NCBI GenBank assembly: GCA_947176505.1
Contig: CAMWQW010000001.1
Coordinates: 62,001 to 126,000 of the forward strand
Reading direction: 5' to 3'
Source: an uncultured Lachnospiraceae bacterium
GTDB lineage: Bacteria; Bacillota; Clostridia; Lachnospirales; Lachnospiraceae
DNA: 64,000 nucleotides
Under the pieces are notes generated by a model, which saw only the letters and a list, made by a program, of their open reading frames with translations, was not told where the DNA came from and searched no databases. Positions 55,999 to 60,161 of this stretch are shown here, piece after piece (the stretch's first letter is position 1; every line of letters begins with the position of its first letter). Both the position numbers and the translations under genes were made by a program.

Positions 55999-56193
55999 TT
56001 ATCCAACCGCCGCAATCTTAGCCATCAGATCGTCCACTGCGATACCGTGCACCATAGCCGCTTCTTCCAGTGTCTCTCCCTGAGCGGAAGGGCAACCGAG
56101 ACAATGCATTCCAATCTCCATGAGTACAGGCGCAATGTCCGGATTGGTTCTTAACGCTTCGCCTATTGTTGTTTCTTTTGTGATATCTGCCAT
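55999..56193 (-). CDS. DUF1858 domain protein
   Basis: A 64-residue protein that is almost entirely a DUF1858 domain: [20 protein letters not shown], then [18 protein letters not shown], with the conserved CxxC pair. Such small proteins often accompany redox or hybrid-cluster proteins and may bind metal or act in thiol chemistry. ATG at 56193 is six bases after GGAGG; a longer upstream frame is unsupported. It is divergent from the PFL operon, 432 bp away. Confidence 0.88.
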
Positions 56194-56625
56194 AATATAC
56201 CTCCGTTCATTCGTCTCCCGCACACCGGTTTCTTTTGACAACATAGCTTCAAAATCCAGCGGTGTCCGATTGAATATATCATTTAATTTATCTCTTCCGA
56301 CATGTATTATCCCACATGTCCTTACATTTTAACAGTATAATCCGAAATAAAGATTCCTGCAAGTCATATCTTACTCTCTCCGTTCGTTCTACTTCAACGC
56401 TTTACCCTAATTTTGCTTTTGTTTAAACAATATCTTTTTTGCATACAATTTTCACAAATTTTTCATAAAATAATGCTAAATGTATGAGAAAAAGTACAAA
56501 GCCCGACTTGACTCTTCTACTTGCTATAACATATAATATGTGTACTGGATAACTATTTTTTCGGCATTTTAATAAAAATGTCAAAAAATTAACAAAATAA
56601 TCATTGAATAGGAGGCTATTTCAAA
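56194..56625. other. AT-rich promoter region upstream of the PFL operon
   Basis: This 432-bp gap holds the PFL promoter, its 85-bp leader, and AT-rich upstream sequence. I saw no riboswitch, repeat or RNA gene, and no clear Rex-type (TTGTGA-6-TCACAA) redox operator. Confidence 0.5.
56508..56537 (+). promoter_or_regulatory. PFL operon promoter
   Basis: TTGACT, an 18-bp spacer and TATAAT, 88 bp before pflB. Confidence 0.75.
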
Positions 56626-58662
56626 ATGAGACCAGAATGGAAAGATTTTGTAGGCGGCAAGTGGGACAAAGAAGTTAACGTTCGTGACTTCATCCAGAGA
56701 AACTATCATCCTTATGATGGTGACGAGTCCTTCTTGGCAGAACCTACACAGAACACAAAAGACTTATGGGCACAGGTTCTTGACTTACAGAAGCAGGAAC
56801 GTGAGGCAGGCGGTGTACTTGATATGGATACCAAAGTTGTATCTACTATTACATCTCATGGTCCCGGCTATTTAGACAAGAGCAAAGAGACAATCGTAGG
56901 TTTCCAGACAGATAAGCCTTTCAAACGTTCCTTACAGCCTTACGGCGGTATTAGAATGGCAGAGAAAGCTTGTACAGACAACGGTTATGAGGTTGATCCC
57001 GAAATCAGCGAGTTCTTCTCTACACATAGAAAAACTCACAATGCAGGTTGTTTTGATGCATATAATGCAGAGATGAGAGCATGTCGTTCTTCTCATATCA
57101 TCACGGGTCTTCCGGATGCATATGGTCGTGGACGTATCATCGGCGACTACAGACGTGTTGCTCTGTACGGTATCGACAGACTGATCGAAGACAAGCAGGC
57201 ACAGAAGGATTCTACCGGTCGTGTTATGACTGACGATGTAATCCGTCTTCGCGAAGAATTATCCGAGCAGATGGTTGCACTGAAGTTAATGAAAGAAATG
57301 GCTGCTTCTTACGGTTGTGATATTTCCAAGCCCGCTACAAATGTACAGGAAGCTATTCAGGCTACTTACTTCGGTTATCTGTGTTCTGTTAAAGAGCAGA
57401 ACGGTGCTGCTATGTCTCTTGGACGTACATCTACATTCCTTGATATCTACGCTGAGAGAGACCTTGCTAACGGCACATTCACAGAGCAGCAGATTCAGGA
57501 GTTCGTTGATCACTTCATTATGAAGTTAAGACTGATTAAATTTGCTCGTACACCTGAGTACAATCAGATTTTCGCAGGCGATCCGGTATGGGTAACAGAG
57601 TCCCTCGGTGGTGTTGGCGTTGACGGTCGTCCGATGGTAACGAAGATGAGCTTCCGTTATCTGCACACTCTGACCAACTTAGGACCTTCTCCGGAGCCGA
57701 ACTTAACAGTTCTCTGGTCTACAAGGCTTCCTGAAGCTTGGAAGAAATACTGTGCTAAGATGTCCATCCAGACTTCTTCCATCCAGTATGAGAACGATGA
57801 TCTGATGAGAGTAACACACGGTGATGACTACGGTATCGCTTGCTGTGTATCTTCCATGGTTATCGGTAAGGAAATGCAGTTCTTCGGCGCTCGTGCTAAT
57901 GTTGCTAAGTGTCTGTTATATGCATTAAACGGTGGTGTTGACGAAGTTACCAAGAAACAGGTTGGACCTAAGTATCGTCCTGTTTCCGGTGATGTACTGG
58001 ATTATGACGACGTTATGGATAAATTCATCGACATGTTAGAGTGGCAGGCAGATGTATATGTAAATACTCTGAACATTATCCACTATATGCATGATAAATA
58101 CTGCTATGAGAGAGCAGAGATGGCTCTTCATGACAGAGATGTTAAGCGTTACTTCGCAACAGGTGTTGCAGGTCTTTCCATCGTGGCTGACTCCTTATCT
58201 GCTATCAAGTATGCTAAGGTTGAGCCGATTAGAGATGAGGACGGCATCATCGTTGACTTTAAGACAACAGGTGATTTCCCGAAATATGGTAATGACGATG
58301 ACCGTGTAGATGAGATTGCTCAGGAAATTGTTCATAAATTCATGACAGCAATCAGAAGACACCACACCTACAGAAACGGTGTTCCTACAACCTCTATCCT
58401 TACCATTACTTCCAATGTAACTTACGGTAAGGCTACAGGTAACACACCTGACGGACGTAAGAAAGGTCAGCCTTTTGCTCCGGGTGCTAACCCGATGCAC
58501 GGACGTGATACTCACGGTGCAGTAGCTTCCTTATCTTCCGTATCCAAGCTTCCGTTCAATGATGCACAGGATGGTATTTCTAATACCTTCACCATCATTC
58601 CGGGTGCCCTTGGTAAAGAGGCACAGGTATTTGCAGGCGATATCGAGCTTGATTTGAAATAA
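56626..58662 (+). CDS. pflB: Pyruvate formate-lyase catalytic part lacking the glycyl radical domain
   Basis: A 678-residue protein closely matching PFL from its N-terminus onward, including [13 protein letters not shown], the active-site pair Cys406-Cys407 in [11 protein letters not shown], and the late [20 protein letters not shown] and [23 protein letters not shown] segments. A normal PFL (about 750-760 residues) continues into a glycyl radical domain ending RVSGYAV; this one stops after AGDIELDLK. The missing part is a separate gene at 59021. The enzyme turns pyruvate and CoA into acetyl-CoA and formate. AGGAGG lies ten bases before ATG. Codon use looks like that of a highly expressed gene. 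Confidence 0.93.
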
Positions 58663-58706
58663 ATTCCTTCAAAAACTCGAAGCGGCTTCATATAGGAGTT
58701 AAAAAT

Positions 58707-58910
58707 ATGGATAACAATCAGATGATTGAAGACTTTGTCAAAATGATGGATTCCGGCATGGCGCAGGGCGTCGGGCATGTGAATGTAGATGTTGATGACA
58801 AAGCGGATAATTCCAAAAATGTTCAGACAATGGGGTGCACGGATTGCTCCCGTACCCCGTTGGCTTGCAGTGTTCCGACTCTCCATGAGGGTTTGGACGA
58901 CTACAAATAA
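58707..58910 (+). CDS. Small Cys-tail protein resembling the start of the glycyl domain
   Basis: A 67-residue protein with AGGAG eight bases before ATG. Residues 7-29 ([15 protein letters not shown] then VGHVNVDV) align without gaps to residues 8-30 of the 80-aa glycyl protein ([15 protein letters not shown] then GHHLNVNV): 7 identities plus many conservative changes. The glycyl loop is absent; instead the C-terminus is [20 protein letters not shown] with Cys44, Cys47 and Cys54. It lies exactly between the two halves of the split PFL. Function unknown; a docking competitor, assembly factor or metal/redox peptide are possibilities only. Confidence 0.75.
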
Positions 58911-58912
58911 CA

Positions 58913-58976
58913 AATCGTCGCCCGGCGGCGACGATTCAAAGAATGCTTCGCATTCTCCCTGATTCGCTTTGCGAAC
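58913..58976 (+). repeat. Three consecutive hairpins between the split PFL genes
   Basis: A perfect 10-bp stem AATCGTCGCC/GGCGACGATT with loop CGGC (58913-58936) begins two bases after the 67-aa gene's stop. AGAATGC-TTC-GCATTCT (58940-58956) shares its arms with the short hairpins in the atp operon repeats. TTCGC-TTT-GCGAA (58963-58975) follows. No T-run, so not a terminator; likely an RNA-processing or stability element setting subunit ratios. Confidence 0.75.
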
Positions 58977-59020
58977 TCGAAACAGAATCAAAATGTATTA
59001 ATCACAAGGAGGACAAAACA

Positions 59021-59263
59021 ATGGCAGCAGCAAATGCTCAGGTAGATAACTTAGTTTCTTTATTAGATGGCTATGCAACCAAAGGCGGTCATCACCTTAA
59101 TGTAAACGTACTCAACAGAGATACTTTATTAGATGCTCAGAAGCATCCTGAGAACTATCCTCAGTTGACAATCCGTGTATCCGGTTATGCAGTTAACTTC
59201 ATTAAGTTAACACCGGAACAGCAGGCTGACGTTATTTCTCGTACATTCCACGAGTCAGTTTAA
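59021..59263 (+). CDS. Stand-alone glycyl radical domain of the split PFL (GrcA/YfiD-like)
   Basis: An 80-residue protein starting [20 protein letters not shown] at 59021 with AAGGAGG seven to eight bases upstream. It is the C-terminal part of [21 protein letters not shown], then [12 protein letters not shown] with radical-forming Gly55, ending SRTFHESV 25 residues later as in intact PFL. Unlike E. coli GrcA (YfiD), a spare part for a damaged full PFL, here the large partner lacks this domain altogether, so this protein should be essential for activity. The activase PflA follows. Confidence 0.93.
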
Positions 59264-59281
59264 TCAAACGTCAATAATGCA

Positions 59282-59312
59282 GGAGCCTTGCAATAGCGAG
59301 GCTCCTTTTTTT
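59282..59312 (+). terminator. Terminator behind the glycyl-domain gene
   Basis: GGAGCCTTGC/GCGAGGCTCC stem with an AATA loop (one T-G wobble), then TTTTTTT. Confidence 0.9.
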
Positions 59313-59390: not shown

Positions 59391-60161
59391 ATGCAGGGAA
59401 GAATCCACTCTTTAGAAAGTTTTGGTACGGTAGACGGACCGGGAACACGTTTTGTAGTTTTTGTACAGGGGTGTCCCATGCGCTGTGCTTACTGCCACAA
59501 TCCCGATACTTGGTCTATGACCGGCGGAACAATGATGGAGCCGGAAGAAATTTTTGAACAATATAAGCGCAACGAAGCCTTTTACAAAGGCGGCGGTATC
59601 ACGGTTACCGGTGGCGAACCGTTAATGCAGGTAGACTTTTTAATCGACTTGTTTACAATCGCTAAGGCAAACAATGTGCACACATGCATAGACTCTTCCG
59701 GAATCGCATATAAGAAAAATGCTAATCCGGAATGGCTTGCTAAACTTGACAAATTAATGACAATGACAGACCTTGTCATGCTAGACATTAAGCATATTGA
59801 CCCCGAAAAGCATAAGGAACTGACCTCACAGCCTAACGACGGCATTCTTGCTTTTGCAGAATATTTGTCTGAAAAACATGTAGATGTATGGATTCGCCAT
59901 GTTATTGTTCCGGGCATTACCGATGATGACAAGTTCTTGTACCAGCTTGGTTACTTTATTGGCGGCTTAACTAATTTGAAGGCTTTGGATGCCCTTCCTT
60001 ATCACACGATGGGTAAGCCCAAATACGAGAAACTGGGGATGGAATATAAACTTGACGGCGTAGAACCCATGGACAAAAATAAATTGCTTGAGAAAAAGCA
60101 AGTAATTCTGGACGGCATCCGCAAACGCCGCGAGGAATTAGCGATTCATTCAGAAGGCTGA
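59391..60161 (+). CDS. pflA: Pyruvate formate-lyase activating enzyme
   Basis: A 256-residue radical SAM enzyme that abstracts H from the PFL glycine. The 4Fe-4S motif CxxxCxxC is Cys28, Cys32, Cys35 in VQGCPMRCAYCHNPDTW; the SAM-binding GGEPL, DSSG and LDIKHID segments follow. Normal length. It must recognise a glycyl loop that sits on a separate small protein. AAGAAGG lies eight bases before ATG; a weak promoter (-10 TATACT at 59348) is possible between the terminator and this gene. Confidence 0.96.
   Translation: MQGRIHSLESFGTVDGPGTRFVVFVQGCPMRCAYCHNPDTWSMTGGTMMEPEEIFEQYKRNEAFYKGGGITVTGGEPLMQVDFLIDLFTIAKANNVHTCIDSSGIAYKKNANPEWLAKLDKLMTMTDLVMLDIKHIDPEKHKELTSQPNDGILAFAEYLSEKHVDVWIRHVIVPGITDDDKFLYQLGYFIGGLTNLKALDALPYHTMGKPKYEKLGMEYKLDGVEPMDKNKLLEKKQVILDGIRKRREELAIHSEG

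Follow-up and report, generated by a model that had tools for sequence, protein, structure and literature searches.

Pyruvate formate-lyase (PFL) is a central enzyme of fermentation and the example given in textbooks of an enzyme whose own radical lets oxygen destroy it. In a 64,000-nucleotide stretch of DNA from an uncultured Lachnospiraceae bacterium (assembly GCA_947176505.1, contig CAMWQW010000001.1, positions 62,001 to 126,000; referred to below as the window), the catalytic cysteine pair and the radical glycine of this enzyme are encoded by two separate genes, with a third small gene between them. Does the locus hold a broken PFL gene, a PFL copy with a spare part beside it, or a working enzyme built from several chains? 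The sequence comparisons described here indicate that it probably encodes a functional multi-chain PFL with a detachable radical subunit, and at most such loci a cysteine-bearing element accompanies the two halves.

The large open reading frame encodes 678 residues. Its product matched the PFL model TIGR01255 with 1094.6 bits (cut-off 994.2), covering profile positions 2-665 of 744, and the Pfam PFL-like model with an E-value of 7e-219. The radical glycine is absent from this chain, and the enzyme is not the single polypeptide described by TIGR01255. In an alignment of 33 of the 97 large-chain sequences, C406-C407, R170, W322 and R423 were invariant. Mapped by hand on the alignment, these are positions 418-419, 176, 333 and 435 of Escherichia coli PFL, where we take Arg176, Trp333 and Arg435 to be the substrate-binding residues. 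The 80-residue product of the small gene scored 161.2 bits with the NCBIfam model NF038360 (GrcA3; cut-off 158), and fell below the cut-offs of GrcA (100.5 against 170) and GrcA2 (107.6 against 145). Its residues 9-79 align to residues 683-758 of E. coli PFL, and Gly55, within the motif RVSGYAV, corresponds by alignment to Gly734. The original prediction, made from the window alone, had placed the cysteine pair on one protein and Gly55 on the other, and had given the two genes a combined length of 758 residues; both statements are correct, as are its coordinates. It had also described a clean break before the glycyl domain. The break in fact runs through the Pfam Gly_radical model, of which positions 1-49 match the large chain and positions 50-106 the small one. 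The features of the locus are as follows.

56508..56537, + strand: possible sigma-70-type operon promoter, TTGACT-18-TATAAT (11 of 12 consensus matches)
56626..58662, + strand: PFL catalytic chain, 678 residues (TIGR01255 and Pfam PFL-like matches)
58707..58910, + strand: middle gene, 67 residues, with a glycyl-domain-like N-terminal half and a cysteine tail (conserved position, GrcA3 profile match)
58913..58990, + strand: three predicted RNA hairpins in the gap between the middle and small genes (RNA folding)
59021..59263, + strand: radical subunit, 80 residues, GrcA3, with Gly55 (NF038360; start at 59021 behind AGGAGG)
59281..59306, + strand: terminator-like stem-loop of the intrinsic type, 3′ of the radical subunit gene (11-pair stem, T run)
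59391..60161, + strand: PFL-activating enzyme (radical SAM), 256 residues (TIGR02493, 292.3 bits against a cut-off of 231.75)

We compared the three genes with those of eight relatives, and change was mostly synonymous in all of them. Nonsynonymous divergence (dN) over synonymous divergence (dS) was 0.02-0.09 over 0.8-1.9 for the large chain (a ratio of about 0.02-0.08), 0.04-0.10 over 0.6-2.0 for the small gene and 0.08-0.28 over 0.9-3.1 for the middle gene, with dS saturated and not computable in four comparisons of the middle gene and one of the small gene. The same gene order was found in other assemblies. A simple frameshift, already dismissed in the original prediction, is therefore rejected together with assembly error and pseudogene formation, by the same order elsewhere, the lack of any full-length PFL among our matches and the low dN/dS.

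The genome containing the window (4.17 Mb; estimated completeness 100, contamination 1.97) gave a single PF02901 match, and the search for a full-length PFL elsewhere in it, which had been proposed as a check, found none. GrcA3 as a spare for a full-length PFL is thus rejected for this genome. Only one other PF01228 match was present, in a 724-codon frame on contig C4 that, judged by its length, is probably an anaerobic ribonucleotide reductase. Nor did we find another known route from pyruvate to acetyl-CoA. The genome had no TIGR02176 match for pyruvate:ferredoxin oxidoreductase (PFOR), and its only PF01855 match was the alpha subunit of indolepyruvate ferredoxin oxidoreductase (IorA). The E1 component of pyruvate dehydrogenase was not recognised: the best PF00676 match in the genome reads as a transketolase, two weaker ones lay below the cut-off and were not scanned, and the AceE-type model PF17831 had no match. 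The split PFL looks to be the only known pyruvate-to-acetyl-CoA enzyme found in the genome, and central to its metabolism. With one PFL, no PFOR and no recognised pyruvate dehydrogenase E1, the split enzyme would be expected to be active.

To place the locus among its relatives, 200 Lachnospiraceae genomes were searched with NF038360. At E <= 0.001 there were matches in 171 of them, fused PFLs included. Stand-alone GrcA3 genes, in frames of 80-159 codons, accounted for at least 90 matches in at least 80 genomes, a figure counted by hand from matches listed down to about 2e-32, so that weaker stand-alone forms could be missed. We fetched the 89 stand-alone loci outside the window and 22 fused PFLs; for alignment, 45 of the 90 GrcA3 sequences were used. 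Eighty of the 90 stand-alone genes lie beside a glycyl-less PFL catalytic chain, one per genome; of the other ten, nine lack a neighbouring PFL gene and one is cut off by the end of its contig. The split PFL of the window is real, as first claimed, but not unique. In 77 of the 80 split genomes no full-length PFL was found at E <= 1e-200, which argues that GrcA3 is not present there as a repair part for one; in four genomes the split large chain is cut by a contig end and so falls below this threshold itself. At E <= 1e-41, a stand-alone form was detected in 23 of 391 genomes sampled from the class; 17 of these 23 genomes belong to eight families other than Lachnospiraceae. At each of the 12 loci read of these 23 (11 outside Lachnospiraceae, from six families), a split PFL lay beside GrcA3. 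In a sample of 398 genomes from the phylum, only two matched at E <= 1e-43, both Lachnospiraceae.

The original prediction had implied an obligate two-subunit enzyme. The PFL is indeed split, but that account is incomplete, as the gene lying between its two halves is itself conserved and forms a third part. It sits between them in 51 of the 80 split loci, a count that leaves out the nine PFL-free GrcA3 loci and the contig-end locus L255. Searching with the 67-residue protein of the window at E <= 0.1 gave matches in 56 of the 200 Lachnospiraceae genomes, some few of which were weak. Of 80 named loci that were fetched together with the middle gene, the same stretch contained the large chain in 80 and GrcA3 in 78. 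Residues 3-33 of the middle protein match the GrcA3 profile (probability 95.6%, E 1.1e-8) over the stretch that precedes the radical loop. The radical glycine is absent from this half, which is possibly a docking mimic of the glycyl domain. The C-terminal half carries a cysteine tail, C-x2-C-x6-C-x-V-P-T. In an alignment of 49 of the 51 middle proteins (the shortened L154 and L179 were left out), D15, G23, C47, A53, C54 and P57 were invariant; across all 51 there are two cysteines in 16 proteins, three in 34 and four in one. Membership of a known family was rejected: the protein belongs to no Pfam or PHROGs family, its only NCBIfam match is the sub-threshold one to GrcA3, and it has no significant sequence match in the Protein Data Bank (PDB). 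Elsewhere in the genome, the search for a paralogue returned only a weak match (E 0.04).

At the other 29 split loci, here called type B, no middle gene was found. In 27 of these the C-terminus of the large chain is a tail, usually acidic, that contains two or three cysteines and often a C-x-I-P-N motif. No cysteine follows the ALGK segment in any of the 51 large chains that have an adjoining middle gene. Cysteine makes up 6.4% of the type B tails and 3.9% of the middle proteins, against 1.0% of the PFL core. Of the 29 type B tails, 24 have a loose C...C...P pattern, which also occurs in 48 of the 51 middle proteins, and 13 have a PTLxxGLD-like pattern. Common descent of the cis and trans tails is thus likely, though not proven. 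Outside Lachnospiraceae, a cysteine tail or a middle gene was present at nine of 11 loci. In 20 of the 22 fused PFLs the stretch between barrel and glycyl domain has no cysteine. Of the remaining two, L241 has a single cysteine, inside the glycyl helix, and L233 (genome G096; a 774-codon frame) has an insert rich in cysteine between these two domains.

How far does this arrangement differ from known ones? The two chains jointly match nearly the whole of full-length PflB (TIGR01255; E. coli, 1h16), including the cysteine pair, the arginine and tryptophan residues, RVSGYAV and a neighbouring activase. They differ from it in that radical glycine and cysteine pair are on separate proteins, and the cysteine element was not seen in 21 of the 22 fused relatives. 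As a small stand-alone glycyl domain the 80-residue protein resembles GrcA/YfiD (TIGR04365), T4 Y06I and GrcA3, and it passes the GrcA3 cut-off. YfiD, however, has 127 residues with a disordered N-terminal half, and repairs oxygen-cleaved full-length PFL, according to the available part of PMC8683613. The window protein has no such long disordered half, its match to E. coli PFL beginning at residue 9 of 80, and the one PFL that was found alongside it has no glycyl region.

A similar two-chain make-up has been engineered from E. coli proteins as tPFL(1-695):truncYfiD(61-127) (Andorfer 2021, PMC8683613). As far as the accessible text of that paper goes, the engineered enzyme, after activation, equals the wild type in activity, with a kcat of 204 per s, and residues 696-733 of E. 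coli PFL are termed the recognition element. In contrast to the natural form, with its cysteine element and co-encoded partner, it is man-made and, again by that text, poorly activated. Since the match of the natural small chain to E. coli PFL begins at residue 683, the natural cut lies about 13 residues earlier than the engineered one at 695. The closest solved chains are PDB 38la_A (687 residues) and 38lb_A (739 residues), both named 'Formate acetyltransferase' and known here from chain sequence and name alone, whether natural or truncated constructs. In both, the match runs as far as the LGK segment and no glycyl domain is recognisable; 38la_A stops at the LGKED segment, and 38lb_A extends about 50 residues beyond. 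GrcA3 matched no chain of 38la or 38lb at E <= 0.001. Given solved chains with neither a glycyl domain nor a partner matching GrcA3, others may be studying such enzymes.

The accessory subunits of benzylsuccinate synthase (BSS), 4-hydroxyphenylacetate decarboxylase (HPAD) and (1-methylalkyl)succinate synthase (MASS) are likewise small, contain cysteines and partner a glycyl radical enzyme, but there the glycyl domain stays on the large chain, in the portion available of PMC12358834. No sequence relation was found between them and the middle protein. Among the open-licence literature matches listed, with most subscription papers and bioRxiv preprints outside this scope, none described the middle protein or a PFL that is split in nature, and the available parts of PMC12288474, PMC6325248 and PMC12338860 do not describe a natural split PFL. 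GrcA3 already has its own NCBIfam family, and the spare-part role of GrcA is established; a split PFL with a cysteine element appears to be new.

From the genes and their conservation we infer a complex that catalyses the PFL reaction and exchanges GrcA3, and the functions of the cysteine element set out here. In this proposal the 678-residue chain would provide the barrel, the substrate and coenzyme A sites and the Cys406-Cys407 pair. GrcA3 would dock as the missing barrel strand and supply the glycyl radical loop, and the adjacent activase would install the radical on Gly55, which would then be placed beside Cys406-Cys407. As the radical would be carried by an exchangeable 80-residue chain, a chain cut by oxygen could in principle be replaced and the catalytic chain kept. 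Cheap repair of oxygen damage in this way, as first suggested for the locus, is plausible by analogy, and fits the spare-part work on E. coli in the available part of PMC8683613. The cysteine tail, supplied in trans here by the 67-residue protein, would bind the catalytic chain on the face where GrcA3 docks. It would mark or guard the radical site, with its cysteines, while this is empty, and aid the loading of GrcA3 and activase, standing in for residues 696-733 of oxygen-cleaved E. coli PFL. By way of GrcA3, the N-terminal half of the middle protein corresponds roughly to E. coli PFL 683-713, and so overlaps the recognition element; the rest of the protein is the cysteine tail. It is on this basis that we propose the cysteine element as a recognition or guarding part for GrcA3 loading, acting in trans or in cis. 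Tentatively, and with more doubt than belief, we suggest a cartridge enzyme, in which two parts alternate at one barrel face: GrcA3 as a disposable radical carrier, and a radical-less mimic with a cysteine pair, supplied by the 67-residue protein or by the tail in cis. The mimic would cap and mark the empty site together with its catalytic cysteines, until displaced by GrcA3.

Several observations weigh against this proposal. If the N-terminal half of the middle protein docks at the GrcA3 site, the two proteins would compete. The L154 and L179 middle proteins end just past their first cysteines, ahead of the second conserved one. No cysteine element was found at L169 (genome G130). There is none at the PFL locus L195 (genome G002), where the middle gene is on another contig, C64, and neither tail nor middle gene was present at loci L258 and L262, from other families. 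The homology of cis and trans tails rests on short motifs, matched in only 24 and 13 of the 29 type B tails. Besides the split form, a full-length PFL at E <= 1e-200 is present in three genomes (G085, G119 and G132). In the engineered system, again within the available text of PMC8683613, radical installation on tPFL:YfiD was 32-fold below that on cPFL:YfiD, which retains residues 696-733. Calorimetry detected no binding of YfiD to tPFL, and truncation prevents rescue according to the abstract.

The cysteines could also act in other ways. The element could bind a metal or an iron-sulphur centre and gate the radical domain, as proposed for the BSS beta or MASS delta subunits. The enrichment of cysteine in type B tails and middle proteins over the PFL core points in this direction, and small subunits with cysteine ligands are proposed to gate the glycyl domain in BSS and MASS, in the part of PMC12358834 available. 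However, just two cysteines are invariant among the 49 aligned middle proteins, the number per chain is mostly too low for a four-cysteine or 4Fe-4S site, and the middle protein has neither a family above the Pfam and NCBIfam cut-offs nor a significant PDB match. We therefore think a metal centre rather unlikely. A redox cap is a further candidate: without GrcA3, or in air, the tail would cover Cys406-Cys407 or form disulfide bonds with them, and so protect the catalytic chain for as long as the radical subunit has not been renewed. This would suit an element that has two invariant cysteines and an N-terminal half resembling the very domain it would replace, and that has no counterpart in 21 of 22 fused PFLs, whose site is never empty. 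The spacing between the cysteines is variable, however, and we think such a cap rather unlikely too.

The history of the split was examined with two trees. In a 98-row tree under the LG model, which leaves out four type A large chains of less than 550 residues at contig ends (L202, L216, L231 and L232), the split PFLs cluster with six fused PFLs among them, and there is a long-branch warning among the distant fused rows. A 47-row tree, from a chosen subset of the 98, was built under a mixture model, and it too places six fused PFLs within its starred split clade. In the approximately unbiased (AU) test a single split clade without fused members was not rejected on the 98-row LG tree (p 0.27), and was rejected under the mixture model with 47 rows (p 0.009, for a group tested after the tree had been seen). 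The forms with a separate middle protein and with a cis tail have interchanged repeatedly, with at least three to five label changes forced by strongly supported branches. Could the scattered fused PFLs reflect independent splits at the same place? The AU result on the LG tree, with its long-branch warning, makes the nesting of the fused PFLs model-dependent, and to that extent favours this account. The mixture tree nests six of them and rejects the split-only clade, and L233 retains a cysteine insert, as expected if it is a re-fused split PFL, which is likely. We lean towards one early split with later re-fusions, and consider repeated splitting the less probable course.

A rival account, in which GrcA3 serves as an ordinary spare part, the truncated PFL gene is decaying or has a regulatory role and the real PFL lies elsewhere, is very improbable, for although extra GrcA3 genes without a PFL neighbour occur in nine of the 80 genomes, some next to genes for thioredoxin, rubrerythrin or Crp/Fnr-like proteins, no other PFL was found in the window genome, 77 of the 80 show no full-length one at the threshold used, and the large chain has a dN/dS of about 0.02-0.08 against its eight relatives. 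The nine extra genes are at L172, L188, L194, L209, L211, L215, L217, L227 and L230. Inspection of their neighbours by eye identified thioredoxin at L211 and L230, a rubrerythrin-like gene at L230, Crp/Fnr-like regulators at L172, L211 and L227, and sporulation stage III-like genes at L188, L194 and L209. It is as if some of these PFL-free copies were kept as a spare against oxygen stress.

Autonomous glycyl radical cofactors of the T4 type are already known. In a phage collection, 1539 of 50,697 records had GrcA3 matches, mostly in records named after enterobacterial hosts, and at least one match was an annotated full PFL. A human faecal scaffold filed as Bacteriophage sp. (L273, GenBank MT838895.1) carries an operon for a split PFL, comprising a large chain with a cysteine tail, GrcA3 and the activase, and is probably bacterial DNA.

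The remaining details of the operon are local. As originally described, 358 bp (58663-59020) separate the large frame from the small gene, and each gene has its own Shine-Dalgarno-like ribosome site: AGGAGG for the large gene, AGGAG for the middle gene and AGGAGG for the small gene. The three hairpins noted earlier are indeed predicted, at about 58913-58990, and the region 58900-59020 folds as RNA with -30.2 kcal/mol (z = -3.46). A gap of more than 80 nt between middle and small genes occurs in only nine of 51 loci with the same gene order; the hairpins are thus apparently local, and were rejected as a key feature of split PFLs. Evidence for the sigma-70-type promoter is weak, with 11 such sites in the region against 10.3 expected from shuffled sequences. 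Just 3′ of the activase, from 60297 onward on the + strand, is a ferredoxin-like gene with a CxxCxxC motif. The other flank of the operon has what is presumably a small DUF1858-like protein gene (55999-56244, - strand). At L169 the gene order is altered, with the activase between the large chain and GrcA3.

In many gut Clostridia, then, the radical of PFL is placed on a small separate protein, with a new cysteine element alongside. Annotation with models of full-length PFL and of the spare part may misread such loci as a truncated gene and a repair protein. A natural split glycyl radical enzyme becomes available for biochemistry and engineering, and subunit exchange as a standing strategy, as opposed to an emergency repair, becomes testable. 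PFL would join the few glycyl radical enzymes that have accessory subunits if the middle protein acts in loading or guarding. Should the cartridge arrangement hold, the PFL of this large group of gut anaerobes would be a three-component, oxygen-repairable enzyme with a loading factor of its own.

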